Assembly (NCBI RefSeq): GCF_025150245.1
Contig: NZ_CP102279.1
Coordinates: 1,485,423-1,549,422, forward strand
Length of the DNA: 64,000 nt
Direction: 5' to 3'
Origin: Dorea formicigenerans
Lineage (GTDB): Bacteria > Bacillota > Clostridia > Lachnospirales > Lachnospiraceae
A program made the position numbers and the translations under genes. Below the pieces are notes generated by a model. That model searched no databases, was not told the DNA's origin, and was given only the letters and a program-made list of their open reading frames with translations. Positions 44,463 to 47,524 of this stretch are shown here, in pieces. How positions within the stretch are numbered: position 1 is the stretch's first letter; every line of letters starts with the position of its first letter.

Positions 44463-44528
44463 GCAGATATGCGATGGGCGATGGCGTCCACGATAGGTGA
44501 CGGGCAACAAAATCACTCGCATTCCTGC
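44463..44528 (+). ncRNA. Putative structured RNA element between yqeK and rsfS
   Basis: GCAG-AT-ATGCGA (44463-44474) pairs with TCGCAT-TC-CTGC (44517-44528): 10 paired bases with a 2x2 internal loop. Inside, GTGA (44497-44500) pairs with TCAC (44513-44516). The stretch is distinctly richer in G+C than its surroundings, is not coding and sits just before the rsfS ribosome site. Family unknown. Confidence 0.4.
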
Positions 44529-44555
44529 AAATTTAAAATAACAGGAGGAGACAGA

Positions 44556-44909
44556 ATGAATCAGGCACTGGAAATGGCACGCGTAGCATATCAGGCACTG
44601 GATGAGAAAAAGGGTGAAGATATTCGTGTGATCGATATATCTGGGATATCTGTCATTGGAGATTATTTTGTTATAACAAACGGAACCAGTGACAGTCAAG
44701 TACGTGCACTTGTTGACAATGTAGAAGAGAAGATGCATAAAGCCGGATATGAGTTGAAAGAGCAGGAAGGTAATAACAGCGGTACATGGGTACTTCTGGA
44801 TTACGGTGATATCATCATTCATATTTTTGACAGAGAAAACCGTCCATTCTATAATCTAGAGAGAATCTGGAGTGATGGAAAAGACGTTGAGATGAATGAA
44901 TTATCTTAA
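44556..44909 (+). CDS. rsfS: Ribosome silencing factor RsfS
   Basis: 117-residue RsfS (Iojap/YbeB), which binds L14 on the 50S subunit and blocks subunit joining during starvation. Core motifs are DIRVIDISGISVIGDYFVI, NGTSDSQVRALVDNVEE, and the end GTWVLLDYGDIIIHIFDRENRPFYNLERIW. ATG 44556 follows GGAGGAG (44544-44550); reading further upstream would run into the structured element. Confidence 0.97.
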   Translation: MNQALEMARVAYQALDEKKGEDIRVIDISGISVIGDYFVITNGTSDSQVRALVDNVEEKMHKAGYELKEQEGNNSGTWVLLDYGDIIIHIFDRENRPFYNLERIWSDGKDVEMNELS

Positions 44910-44922
44910 TAAATGAATTTAG

Positions 44923-44996
44923 ATGATGCCAGGATTGTGGGAGTGCAACGCACGGAACAATCCGTAGGCATCATAGTTGGGGCTTTTGACCCCAAC
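44923..44996 (+). repeat. Compound palindromic element downstream of rsfS
   Basis: First hairpin: ATGATGCC (44923-44930) with GGCATCAT (44967-44974), then GGATTGT (44932-44938) with ACAATCC (44957-44963), topped by GTGC-AAC-GCAC (44943-44953). Second hairpin: GTTGGGG (44976-44982) with CCCCAAC (44990-44996). No T-run follows, so it is not a simple terminator; it may be a dispersed REP-like palindrome or a structured 3' RNA. Confidence 0.5.
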
Positions 44997-45027: not shown

Positions 45028-45046
45028 AAAAAACGGTATGGCGCAG
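45028..45046 (+). terminator. Left half of the rsfS/lexA terminator, split by the IS
   Basis: AAAAAACGGTATG ending at 45040, followed by GCG and the CAG target duplication (45044-45046). Its partner arm is at 46517-46530 on the far side of the insertion element. Confidence 0.7.
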
Positions 45047-45083
45047 TGATATGTACCCAGAATCCTGGACACATATTTATGAA

Positions 45084-45971
45084 CTAGGCTGAACACATGG
45101 ATGCTATCCTGTATTGTACAGGTGGCATCCATTTTGTTTTTGCCTGAATTCTTTTGTTATTATAATAATCTATATATTCTTCAACCGCTTGTGAGAATTC
45201 TTCGAAGGAAGAATAGTCTTTCTCATAACCATAATACATCTCATTTTTCAATCTTCCAAAGAATGTCTCCATAATACAATTGTCATAGCAATTACCTTTC
45301 CGTGACATGGATTGTACAATGCCATGTTCTTGTAAGGCATTTCTAAAATTGACATGCTGATACTGCCACCCCTGATTAGAATGAAATATTAATCCTTCGA
45401 CAGAAGGAAATTTTTCAAAAGCTTTATTTAGCATTCTTTCTATCTGGCCAAGATTAGGAGTCCTAGATAAATCATATGAAATAATTTCGTTTGTATTCAT
45501 ATCTAGCACTGGCGATATATAACACTTTCCCCATGAAAAATTGAATTGAGACACATCTGTGGTCCATTTTTGTAAAGGCGAAGTTGTGCTGAAATCTCTG
45601 CCTATTATATTATCAGCAATCTTACCAACTTGTCCCTTATAGGAATGATATTTTTCCTTTGGTCGTTTGCCGGCTAATCCTGATTCATGCATAAGACGCT
45701 GAACTCTCTTATGGTTCACCTGATACCCGCGATTAATAAGTTCCTGGTGAACCCTTCTTACGCCATATCTGCGTTTGTTCTCCTCAAAAATATTTTTTAT
45801 TTCTTCTAGTACTTCTTGATTGCGTTCGGCAACAATATCGTTTCTGTTAATCTCAAAATAGTAAGTAGATTTAGCCATATGCATTGCTTTTAGGAGATAC
45901 TTTAGTTGATATCCTTTTTCTCTGAGTTCTTTGATGATTGCTGCTTTTTCGCCTTGAGTTGCGCAACCCAT
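45084..45971 (-). CDS. IS3 family transposase OrfB (DDE domain, second Asp replaced)
   Basis: 295-residue rve-type integrase domain of an IS150-like transposase. A HTH_21 region (about 25-110; RRYGVRRVHQELINRGYQVNHKRVQRLM) is followed by the catalytic core: D139 in WTTDVSQF, then position 199 in FHSNQGWQYQ, and E235 in DNCIMETFFGRLK with the standard 35-residue spacing. Position 199 should be Asp (HSDQG) but is Asn (AAT, + strand 45375-45377), which should abolish catalysis. OrfB lies in the -1 frame relative to OrfA; the full transposase would need a -1 frameshift, for which G-AAA-AAG (+ strand 45944-45950) is a candidate. Confidence 0.93.
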   Translation of the reverse strand: MGCATQGEKAAIIKELREKGYQLKYLLKAMHMAKSTYYFEINRNDIVAERNQEVLEEIKNIFEENKRRYGVRRVHQELINRGYQVNHKRVQRLMHESGLAGKRPKEKYHSYKGQVGKIADNIIGRDFSTTSPLQKWTTDVSQFNFSWGKCYISPVLDMNTNEIISYDLSRTPNLGQIERMLNKAFEKFPSVEGLIFHSNQGWQYQHVNFRNALQEHGIVQSMSRKGNCYDNCIMETFFGRLKNEMYYGYEKDYSSFEEFSQAVEEYIDYYNNKRIQAKTKWMPPVQYRIASMCSA

Positions 45972-46465
45972 TTTTCTTGCCTCAAGGCAATCCGTTTTTT
46001 TATTACTTCATTCTCGGCTTTGATATATTCATTTTCAGTTCTCAAGCGTATCAGTTCTTCTCGTTCCGATTCTGTTAAAGGTAATGGATTTGTTGATTTT
46101 TTCATTCTCGGTTCCTTTGTTGGTCGTCCTCTTTTACTTTCTACCAATCCATTATATCCTTGTAATTTATATTTGTGTACCCATTGATAAAGCAGTCCTG
46201 CATTAATGCCTGCTTCTATGGCAACTTTCGTTCTTGGTGTGCCTGCAATAACCTTTGAAATCAGTTCAAGTTTTTCTTCGGGTGTCCATACCTTATTAAA
46301 CACCTTATGTTTTAAAACTTCTGGACCATGTAAATCAACCAATCTGGACCATTCTCGTATATGCCTTTTGAGAGTATTGGGATTCAGCCCCTCTGGGATG
46401 TCAGGATACGAACCCGAATGATACAATTCAACACACATCATTTTAAACTCATAACTATAACGCAT
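45902..46465 (-). CDS. IS3 family transposase OrfA (helix-turn-helix)
   Basis: 187-residue DNA-binding subunit with two helix-turn-helix motifs (YSYEFKMMCVELYHSG and TPEEKLELISKVIAGTP...) and a C-terminal coiled-coil leucine zipper (ESEREELIRLRTENEYIKAE). The start at 46465 follows AAGGAGGGTA on the - strand, inside the IS; a longer frame would start in the left-end repeat. It overlaps OrfB by 70 bases. It looks intact. Confidence 0.9.
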   Translation of the reverse strand: MRYSYEFKMMCVELYHSGSYPDIPEGLNPNTLKRHIREWSRLVDLHGPEVLKHKVFNKVWTPEEKLELISKVIAGTPRTKVAIEAGINAGLLYQWVHKYKLQGYNGLVESKRGRPTKEPRMKKSTNPLPLTESEREELIRLRTENEYIKAENEVIKKRIALRQEKWVAQLKAKKQQSSKNSEKKDIN

Positions 46466-46511
46466 AAAAATACCCTCCTTACTGATTGTCCAGTAAAGAG
46501 GGTACATATCA

Positions 46512-46530
46512 CAGGTCATACCGTTTTTAT
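46512..46530 (-). terminator. Right half of the rsfS/lexA terminator, split by the IS
   Basis: CAG duplication, GT, then CATACCGTTTTTAT. Joined to the left half without the IS, it gives a 12-bp stem (A5-CGGTATG with CATACCG-T5) around GCGCAGGT, a hairpin able to terminate rsfS transcription and, being A-flanked on the left, also lexA coming the other way. Confidence 0.7.
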
Positions 46531-46670: not shown

Positions 46671-47288
46671 TTATTTAAAGAATCTAAATACACCAATCAC
46701 CTTGCCAAGAATCTGGCAGTCTCTTACGATGATCGGATCCATAAAGTCGTTCTCCGGTTGAAGTCTGATAAATCCCTCTTCTTTATAAAAAGTCTTTACA
46801 GTTGCACCATCATCGATCAATGCAACAACCATATCTCCGTTATCTGCTGTCTGCTGTTGTTCTACCAGTACCATATCCCCGTTAAGAATACCGGCATTGA
46901 CCATACTCTCACCGCAAACAGTCAGCATGAAGGTCTGATTATTCGGCATGAATTCCATCGGAATAGGAAAGTAGTTTTCGATATTCTGCTGTGCCAGAAG
47001 AGGTTCTCCGGCTGCTACACGACCGATTAGCGGAACATTGACCATCTCACGTCTGTTAAAATTAAAAGACTCATCTAAAATCTCAATTGCCCTCGGTTTT
47101 GTCGGGTCACGCTTAATATATCCATTCTTCTCCAAAGTCTCAAGATGAGAATGGACAGAAGAAGTAGATTTTAGATGAACAGCTTCACATATGTCACGTA
47201 CTGCAGGTGGAAATCCACGTTCCAGTATCTGTGATTTGATATAATCTAAAATCTCTTGTTGTTTTGGAGTAATCTTACCCTGTGCCAT
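46671..47288 (-). CDS. lexA: SOS repressor LexA
   Basis: 205-residue LexA. The N-terminal winged helix (about 1-65; KQQEILDYIKSQILERGFPPAVRDICEAV) is followed by the S24 peptidase domain with the self-cleavage site A93-G94 (GRVAAGEPL), nucleophile S128 (CGESM) and K165 (ATVKTFYKE). The start at 47288 has GGGAGGTT nine bases upstream; the GTG 27 bases further out overlaps that site. It is divergent from the YneA-like gene, as in Bacillus. Confidence 0.98.
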   Translation of the reverse strand: MAQGKITPKQQEILDYIKSQILERGFPPAVRDICEAVHLKSTSSVHSHLETLEKNGYIKRDPTKPRAIEILDESFNFNRREMVNVPLIGRVAAGEPLLAQQNIENYFPIPMEFMPNNQTFMLTVCGESMVNAGILNGDMVLVEQQQTADNGDMVVALIDDGATVKTFYKEEGFIRLQPENDFMDPIIVRDCQILGKVIGVFRFFK

Positions 47289-47524
47289 AATTATAATAAC
47301 CTCCCGTATATTCACACCAGCTCTTTTAGATAGTTATAGTTTAGCAGTATATGACAGAGCAACAAGCCCTTTTGTAAAACTATATAAGAACTGTACAAAA
47401 TTGTTTCATTAACGTTCGTTGGCTTGATATAGAGCCTCTAATTTGATGGTTATATTTTATCACAGGGCATATTAAAAAGCAAACAAATGTTTAGAAAATA
47501 TGTTCGGATTTTTATAAAAAGATA

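Follow-up and report, generated by a model that had tools for sequence, protein, structure and literature searches.

An IS150-branch insertion sequence in the loop of a terminator-like hairpin, and hairpin targets among its relatives

Results

An insertion sequence splits a terminator-like hairpin between rsfS and lexA

The window, the whole 64,000-nucleotide stretch of Dorea formicigenerans DNA analyzed here, carries the convergent genes rsfS (44556..44909, + strand; listed as an open reading frame at 44469-44909, with its start likely at 44556) and lexA (46671..47315, - strand), both identities being backed by Pfam (RsfS, together with the translation, and Peptidase_S24 and LexA_DNA_bind, respectively). 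Between them lies an insertion sequence (IS) of 1465 bp (45047..46511, transposase on the - strand), bordered by two copies of the trinucleotide CAG at 45044-45046 and 46512-46514. On the rsfS side, the CAG closes the left loop part GCGCAG (45041..45046), which follows the left arm of a split hairpin, AAAAACGGTATG (A5-CGGTATG; 45029-45040); on the lexA side, the CAG and the final two loop bases GT (46512..46516) precede the right arm, CATACCGTTTTT (CATACCG-T5; 46517-46528). The two arms are 100% complementary over 12 nt. A preliminary description of this DNA had claimed that removal of 45047-46511 and one CAG rebuilds a hairpin between rsfS and lexA, and this proved right to the base: the rebuilt hairpin has a perfect 12-bp stem, the base of which is formed by A5 and T5, and, as claimed, the 8-nt loop GCGCAGGT. 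The rebuilt site folds at -19.5 kcal/mol (40-nt fold), its loop centre lies 0.5 nt off the duplication centre, and the stable hairpin is followed by a T tract as in an intrinsic terminator (T/A tracts 7 and 6 of 8). The undivided site is thus predicted to be a bidirectional, terminator-like hairpin between convergent genes.

A match to the Clostridiales-1 RNA family (RF01699; window 44807-44973, + strand; 43.1 bits, E 3.3e-7, below the gathering score of 48) extends over the rsfS end and finishes a short way before the split terminator, which may thus serve this RNA as well.

The element belongs to the IS150 branch of the IS3 family

The ends of the IS, TGATATGTACCC and GGGTACATATCA, are imperfect inverted repeats. 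OrfA (45902..46465, - strand; start codon read from the sequence) is a helix-turn-helix protein matching Pfam HTH_Tnp_1, and OrfB (45084..45971, - strand) is a transposase with HTH_21 and rve domains that scores 296.8 bits against NCBIfam transpos_IS3 (cut-off 160). The two frames overlap at 45902-45971, and an A run lies within the overlap. A helix-turn-helix OrfA and an rve (DDE) OrfB in overlapping frames, together with inverted repeats of the form 5'-TG...CA-3' and a short direct repeat, place the element in the IS3 family. Within the family it falls into the IS150 subgroup, since its transposase groups with that of IS150 and not with those of IS3 or IS2, both by OrfB identity (IS150 InsK 43.6%, IS3 InsF 26.5%, IS2 InsD 21.6%) and in a phylogenetic tree.

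No second full copy was found in the element's own genome, where it is present as a single copy only. A 40-nt stretch elsewhere in that genome (G000:C1:388741-388780) is 90% identical to the IS hairpin at the orfB end and stands there without the rest of the element. A search of E. coli gave no match to the window IS, and a phage search gave three records, one of which covers 80% of it.

Both ends of the IS carry a strong hairpin

The rsfS-side end holds a conserved, strongly folding hairpin with a T-rich tail (45097..45145, + strand), the proposed stop for rsfS transcription; the segment 45085-45150 folds at -32.8 kcal/mol (z -7.2), the arms are also OrfB coding sequence, and the hairpin was not listed by the terminator pattern scan. 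At the lexA-side end, just before the OrfA start, pattern scan and fold located a terminator-like hairpin (46470..46505, - strand; -23.4 kcal/mol, z -5.3) that is followed by a T run and faces transcription from lexA. Across 49 distinct rows, 717 of 734 pair cells of this hairpin are kept, with paired changes, and its 3' arm, judged by the sequence, seems to hold the OrfA ribosome site. Moreover, both end hairpins fold strongly in all 58 of 58 distinct full copies. The preliminary description had expected read-through once the terminator arms were separated. The anatomy of the element makes this doubtful, as each of its two ends has a conserved strong hairpin that faces incoming transcription, and the IS may itself provide replacement terminators.

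Relatives of the element sit at hairpins of differing sequence

Relatives were collected by similarity of the transposase or of the whole IS, not of the flanks, from the best 80 of 356 confirmed relatives, from 397 genomes of the family (up to 30 loci) and from 291 genomes of the class, the last supplying multi-copy groups and single copies chosen by hand. Long IS matches were present at 90 loci, 41 of which were left out before the main count (21 with a flank shorter than 30 nt or containing N, 15 with an alignment short of both ends, 4 repeats of a site and 1 duplicate of the window). Also left out were L056, whose match is too short, L161 and L162, which repeat L160, and the family-genome loci L011-L031, which are mostly partial or at contig ends. 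Sites were scored by a 40-nt local fold, with thresholds set after the first flanks had been viewed. A 70-nt fold was dropped as a hairpin test, 734 of 960 random positions having passed it.

The junctions in the relatives are alike, with an A run, a stem, the IS, a stem and a T run, and the stem sequence differs each time. Counting distinct sites by the 40-nt test, a strong hairpin was found at 44/49 near sites and a hairpin with an A/T tract at 40/49; once 30 sites from seven groups of greater divergence were added, the figures were 69/79 and 61/79, respectively. The ten sites that failed were L148, L154, L158, L167, L172, L009, L010, L038, L049 and L076. A matching repeat of at least 3 bp was present at 66 of the 79 sites and absent from 13, with 33 different trinucleotides among the 66. 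Furthermore, the dyad lay within 1 nt of the duplication centre in 38/58 scored stems, a figure that is partly by construction, as stems were sought only within 6 nt. The T tract lay to the right only at 17 sites and the A tract to the left only at 12 (p 0.46), giving no clear bias in orientation. The window copy and most copies of its relatives therefore sit at predicted hairpins whose stem sequences differ.

In a further set of elements, whose ends were defined solely by the end repeats and the duplication, 17 were tried and 13 could be resolved, and 12 of the 13 had a hairpin. Among the 13, L115 is a repeat of L085 from the near set, and L135 and L175 represent a single element present twice, the flanks of the two copies being similar. 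Copies that passed came, among others, from Eubacteriaceae, Lachnospiraceae, Coprobacillaceae, Erysipelotrichaceae, Veillonellaceae, Gemellaceae, Treponemataceae and Succinivibrionaceae, several of these labels deriving from metagenome bins or draft genomes and possibly being wrong. Among plasmid elements, represented by one copy each with automatically set ends, ISEnfa3, ISLla3, ISKpn38 (ends uncertain) and an unannotated Moraxella element passed and ISKpn8 failed; three of the five lack a duplication. On a Moraxella osloensis plasmid (L282), an IS150-like element occupies the exact centre of a near-perfect palindrome with more than 30 bp per arm.

The stems differ between copies, even within one genome, and so do not represent one repeated host palindrome of the REP type. 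There were two exceptions. A more distant element of genome G593 (L168-L171; OrfB identity 36%), counted separately, resembles the REP-targeting elements in that 4/4 copies occupy the loop of one repeated palindrome; all four targets are hairpins without an A/T tract. The target of L143, in genome G577, is likewise a repeated palindrome, and five full copies of it in genome G699 (L266, L269, L272, L276 and L277) are identical and free of the IS.

At five loci (L003, L034, L040, L047 and L071) the left IS end deviates and the sequence there resembles another IS end, suggesting nested insertions. Many family genomes match only query positions 1415-1465, the last 40-50 bases, which form the lexA-side end with its hairpin; such matches could represent diverged elements, remnants of the IS or short copies of a non-autonomous kind. 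L257 and L258, which may be short copies lacking a transposase, gave no complete end pair by exact motif.

Predicted pairing of the flanks distinguishes real sites from controls

At random intergenic positions of the same loci, a hairpin was found at 189/1381 and a hairpin with a tract at 40/1381, and at random positions of any kind the counts were 282/1440 and 23/1440. The targeting of hairpins, which had been a guess from a single copy, is supported by the other copies (69/79 vs 189/1381 random intergenic positions): their targets are not random, and the rule rests on other genomes, the element being single-copy in its own. When left and right flanks of different sites were joined, 165/784 pairs formed a hairpin and 157/784 a hairpin with a tract; mismatched flanks share the tracts by construction, so the hairpin figure (21%) is the proper comparison with the 87% of real sites. 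An ungapped stem test agreed with the 40-nt hairpin test, 39/49 near sites reaching a score met by 2.5% of 1920 random positions and by 5.9% of 783 mismatched flank pairs. Thus, the left and right flanks of one site are predicted to pair far better than flanks from different sites.

A same-genome control was available in genome G529, where the IS150-type element lies in hairpins at 5/6 distinct sites and a different IS3-family element at 0/7; this control comprises G529 only, as four IS3-type copies in G576 and two loci in G582 had unresolved ends and were not counted. Other groups lay off hairpins, with 0/7 sites for G514, G576 and G534 together, all of them small groups.

IS-free sites have predicted hairpins

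We also examined sites without the IS. Among 30 lexA loci, our own included, rsfS lay within 1.5 kb in 14 and was convergent with lexA in 14/14. In 12 of these 14 the genes are at most about 400 bp apart, a gap too small for an IS of this size, and the best 40-nt hairpin between them, chosen as the best window and without a control, reaches -14.5 kcal/mol or stronger; the remaining two pairs are 0.8 and 1.4 kb apart. IS-free relatives accordingly do have a hairpin between rsfS and lexA, as the preliminary description would have it. Furthermore, three relatives are empty at the orthologue of the L157 site, and each has at that place a strong hairpin whose sequence is particular to that relative (-27.1, -15.9 and -18.7 kcal/mol; 3/3).

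Hairpin-targeting elements group with E. coli IS150

In a single, midpoint-rooted tree built from 30 transposases, 23 rows comprising IS150 and the targeting elements are set apart from IS2, IS3 and the groups without hairpin targeting by a split supported at 91/75, which lies below the tool's own mark of 95/80; 20 rows with IS150 reach 98/96 and the 15 nearest rows 100/99. The tree therefore places the targeting elements and IS150 on one side with moderate support.

IS150 itself was sampled at one place per record in 20 of the 40 matches listed (of 3429 matching records). Of these E. coli stretches (L187-L206), 17/20 have an annotated hok or mok gene within 400 bp of IS150, or 10/13 by distinct site; a link between IS150 and hokA is known in E. 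coli K-12. IS150 usually lies in the hairpin-forming part of the hok/sok locus, off the axis, and passed the strict hairpin test at 2/14 sites. We interpret this site choice as a possible narrowed form of the hairpin rule, although it may equally reflect a rule of another kind.

Discussion

We consider it very probable that the window element represents IS150-branch elements of the IS3 family whose targets are hairpin-forming sequences, in most cases intrinsic terminators, and which enter them on the symmetry axis or close to it, usually duplicating 3 bp. Judged from predicted folds, it is the hairpin as such that seems to mark the landing site.

Three other explanations bear on these data. 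Insertion might be guided by transcription, with an RNA polymerase that has paused or is terminating, or the hairpin in its transcript, directing the element. Most targets do look like intrinsic terminators (hairpin with tract at 61/79), yet the 17 vs 12 orientations show no clear bias, and repeated palindromes and a long perfect palindrome, which may or may not be transcribed, are also targeted; we regard this explanation as unlikely. Somewhat less likely still is recognition of sequence, in which the transposase would read an A-rich, GC-rich, T-rich pattern or a motif and not the pairing. Terminators share that composition, and IS150 favours one class of site, the hok/sok loci; however, mismatched flanks of the same composition form hairpins far less often than real flanks (165/784 vs 69/79), the duplicated trinucleotides vary widely, and the G593 element uses hairpins without an A/T tract at 4/4 sites. 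Since all terminators pair, pairing and terminator identity are incompletely separated in these comparisons. Survivorship, by which the element would insert in many places and insertions would last only where they do no harm, as in terminators, is highly improbable: terminators do lie between genes and the window copy leaves all genes intact, but random intergenic positions of the same loci have a hairpin far less often than real sites (189/1381 vs 69/79), the duplication centres cluster at the dyad (38/58 scored stems, partly by construction), and the IS3-type element of G529, under the same selection, lies in hairpins at 0/7 sites.

If the hairpin is indeed the signal, the transposase would recognize it as folded DNA, either as an extruded cruciform or as single strands exposed by replication or transcription, and would join the IS across the hairpin loop. 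The hairpins predicted inside both IS ends would stop incoming transcription, so that the split terminator would be replaced and the transposase gene shielded. A wider reading, which we put forward tentatively and as somewhat short of probable, is that the whole IS150 branch targets the shape of DNA: its transposases would bind extruded hairpins whatever their sequence and insert the IS across the loop, IS150 and the G593 element would have narrowed to particular hairpins, and the hairpins of the element's own ends would restore termination and make insertion into terminators nearly cost-free.

Several known systems share parts of this behaviour. Group IIC introns, retroelements with a ribozyme, insert beside intrinsic terminators; they do so after the stem, whereas the window IS lies in the loop. 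IS150 is the nearest of the three E. coli references and has hairpin-forming hok/sok targets at most sites, but differs in being mostly off the axis and in using one class of site. Passages of PMC1525189 describe ISPsy8, IS1397 and ISKpn1 as IS3-family elements that target REP sequences, ISPsy8 producing a 3-bp duplication and sitting at the symmetry axis of the REP-element hairpin. By these descriptions, each of these elements uses one repeated host palindrome, whereas the stems of the window IS relatives vary. IS1272/TnSha1, of the IS1182 family, targets hairpins with little primary sequence conservation, several of them terminators, according to passages of PMC4923244; it differs in family and in inserting bluntly, with deletion of part of the stem-loop and no duplication (PMC4923244), and the window IS instead has a CAG duplication and intact 12-bp arms. 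IS1447, a Firmicutes-enriched IS3-family element, resembles the window IS by its annotation as IS150 subgroup; the passages of PMC6211511 that treat it deal with +1 transcriptional slippage and do not describe terminator targeting. Finally, IS3-family copies are over-represented between convergent genes in a large survey, as part of PMC9208149 reports, an excess that fits terminator targeting. No rule by which the IS150 branch enters terminators at the loop centre and independently of sequence was found in a library of open-licence papers, a scope outside which most subscription papers fall; with the REP-targeting elements and IS1272 as precedents, the breadth and sequence-independence of the rule would be the new part, on what is weak evidence of absence.

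The finding turns an oddity at one site into a testable target rule for a large group of insertion sequences that are relatives of the laboratory element IS150. An IS at the end of a gene need not mean lost termination, given the strong hairpins that the IS ends have of their own. Moreover, the rule would account for the way such elements increase in number while leaving genes intact, would predict where they land, and would offer a DDE transposase that apparently reads the shape of DNA and not its sequence.
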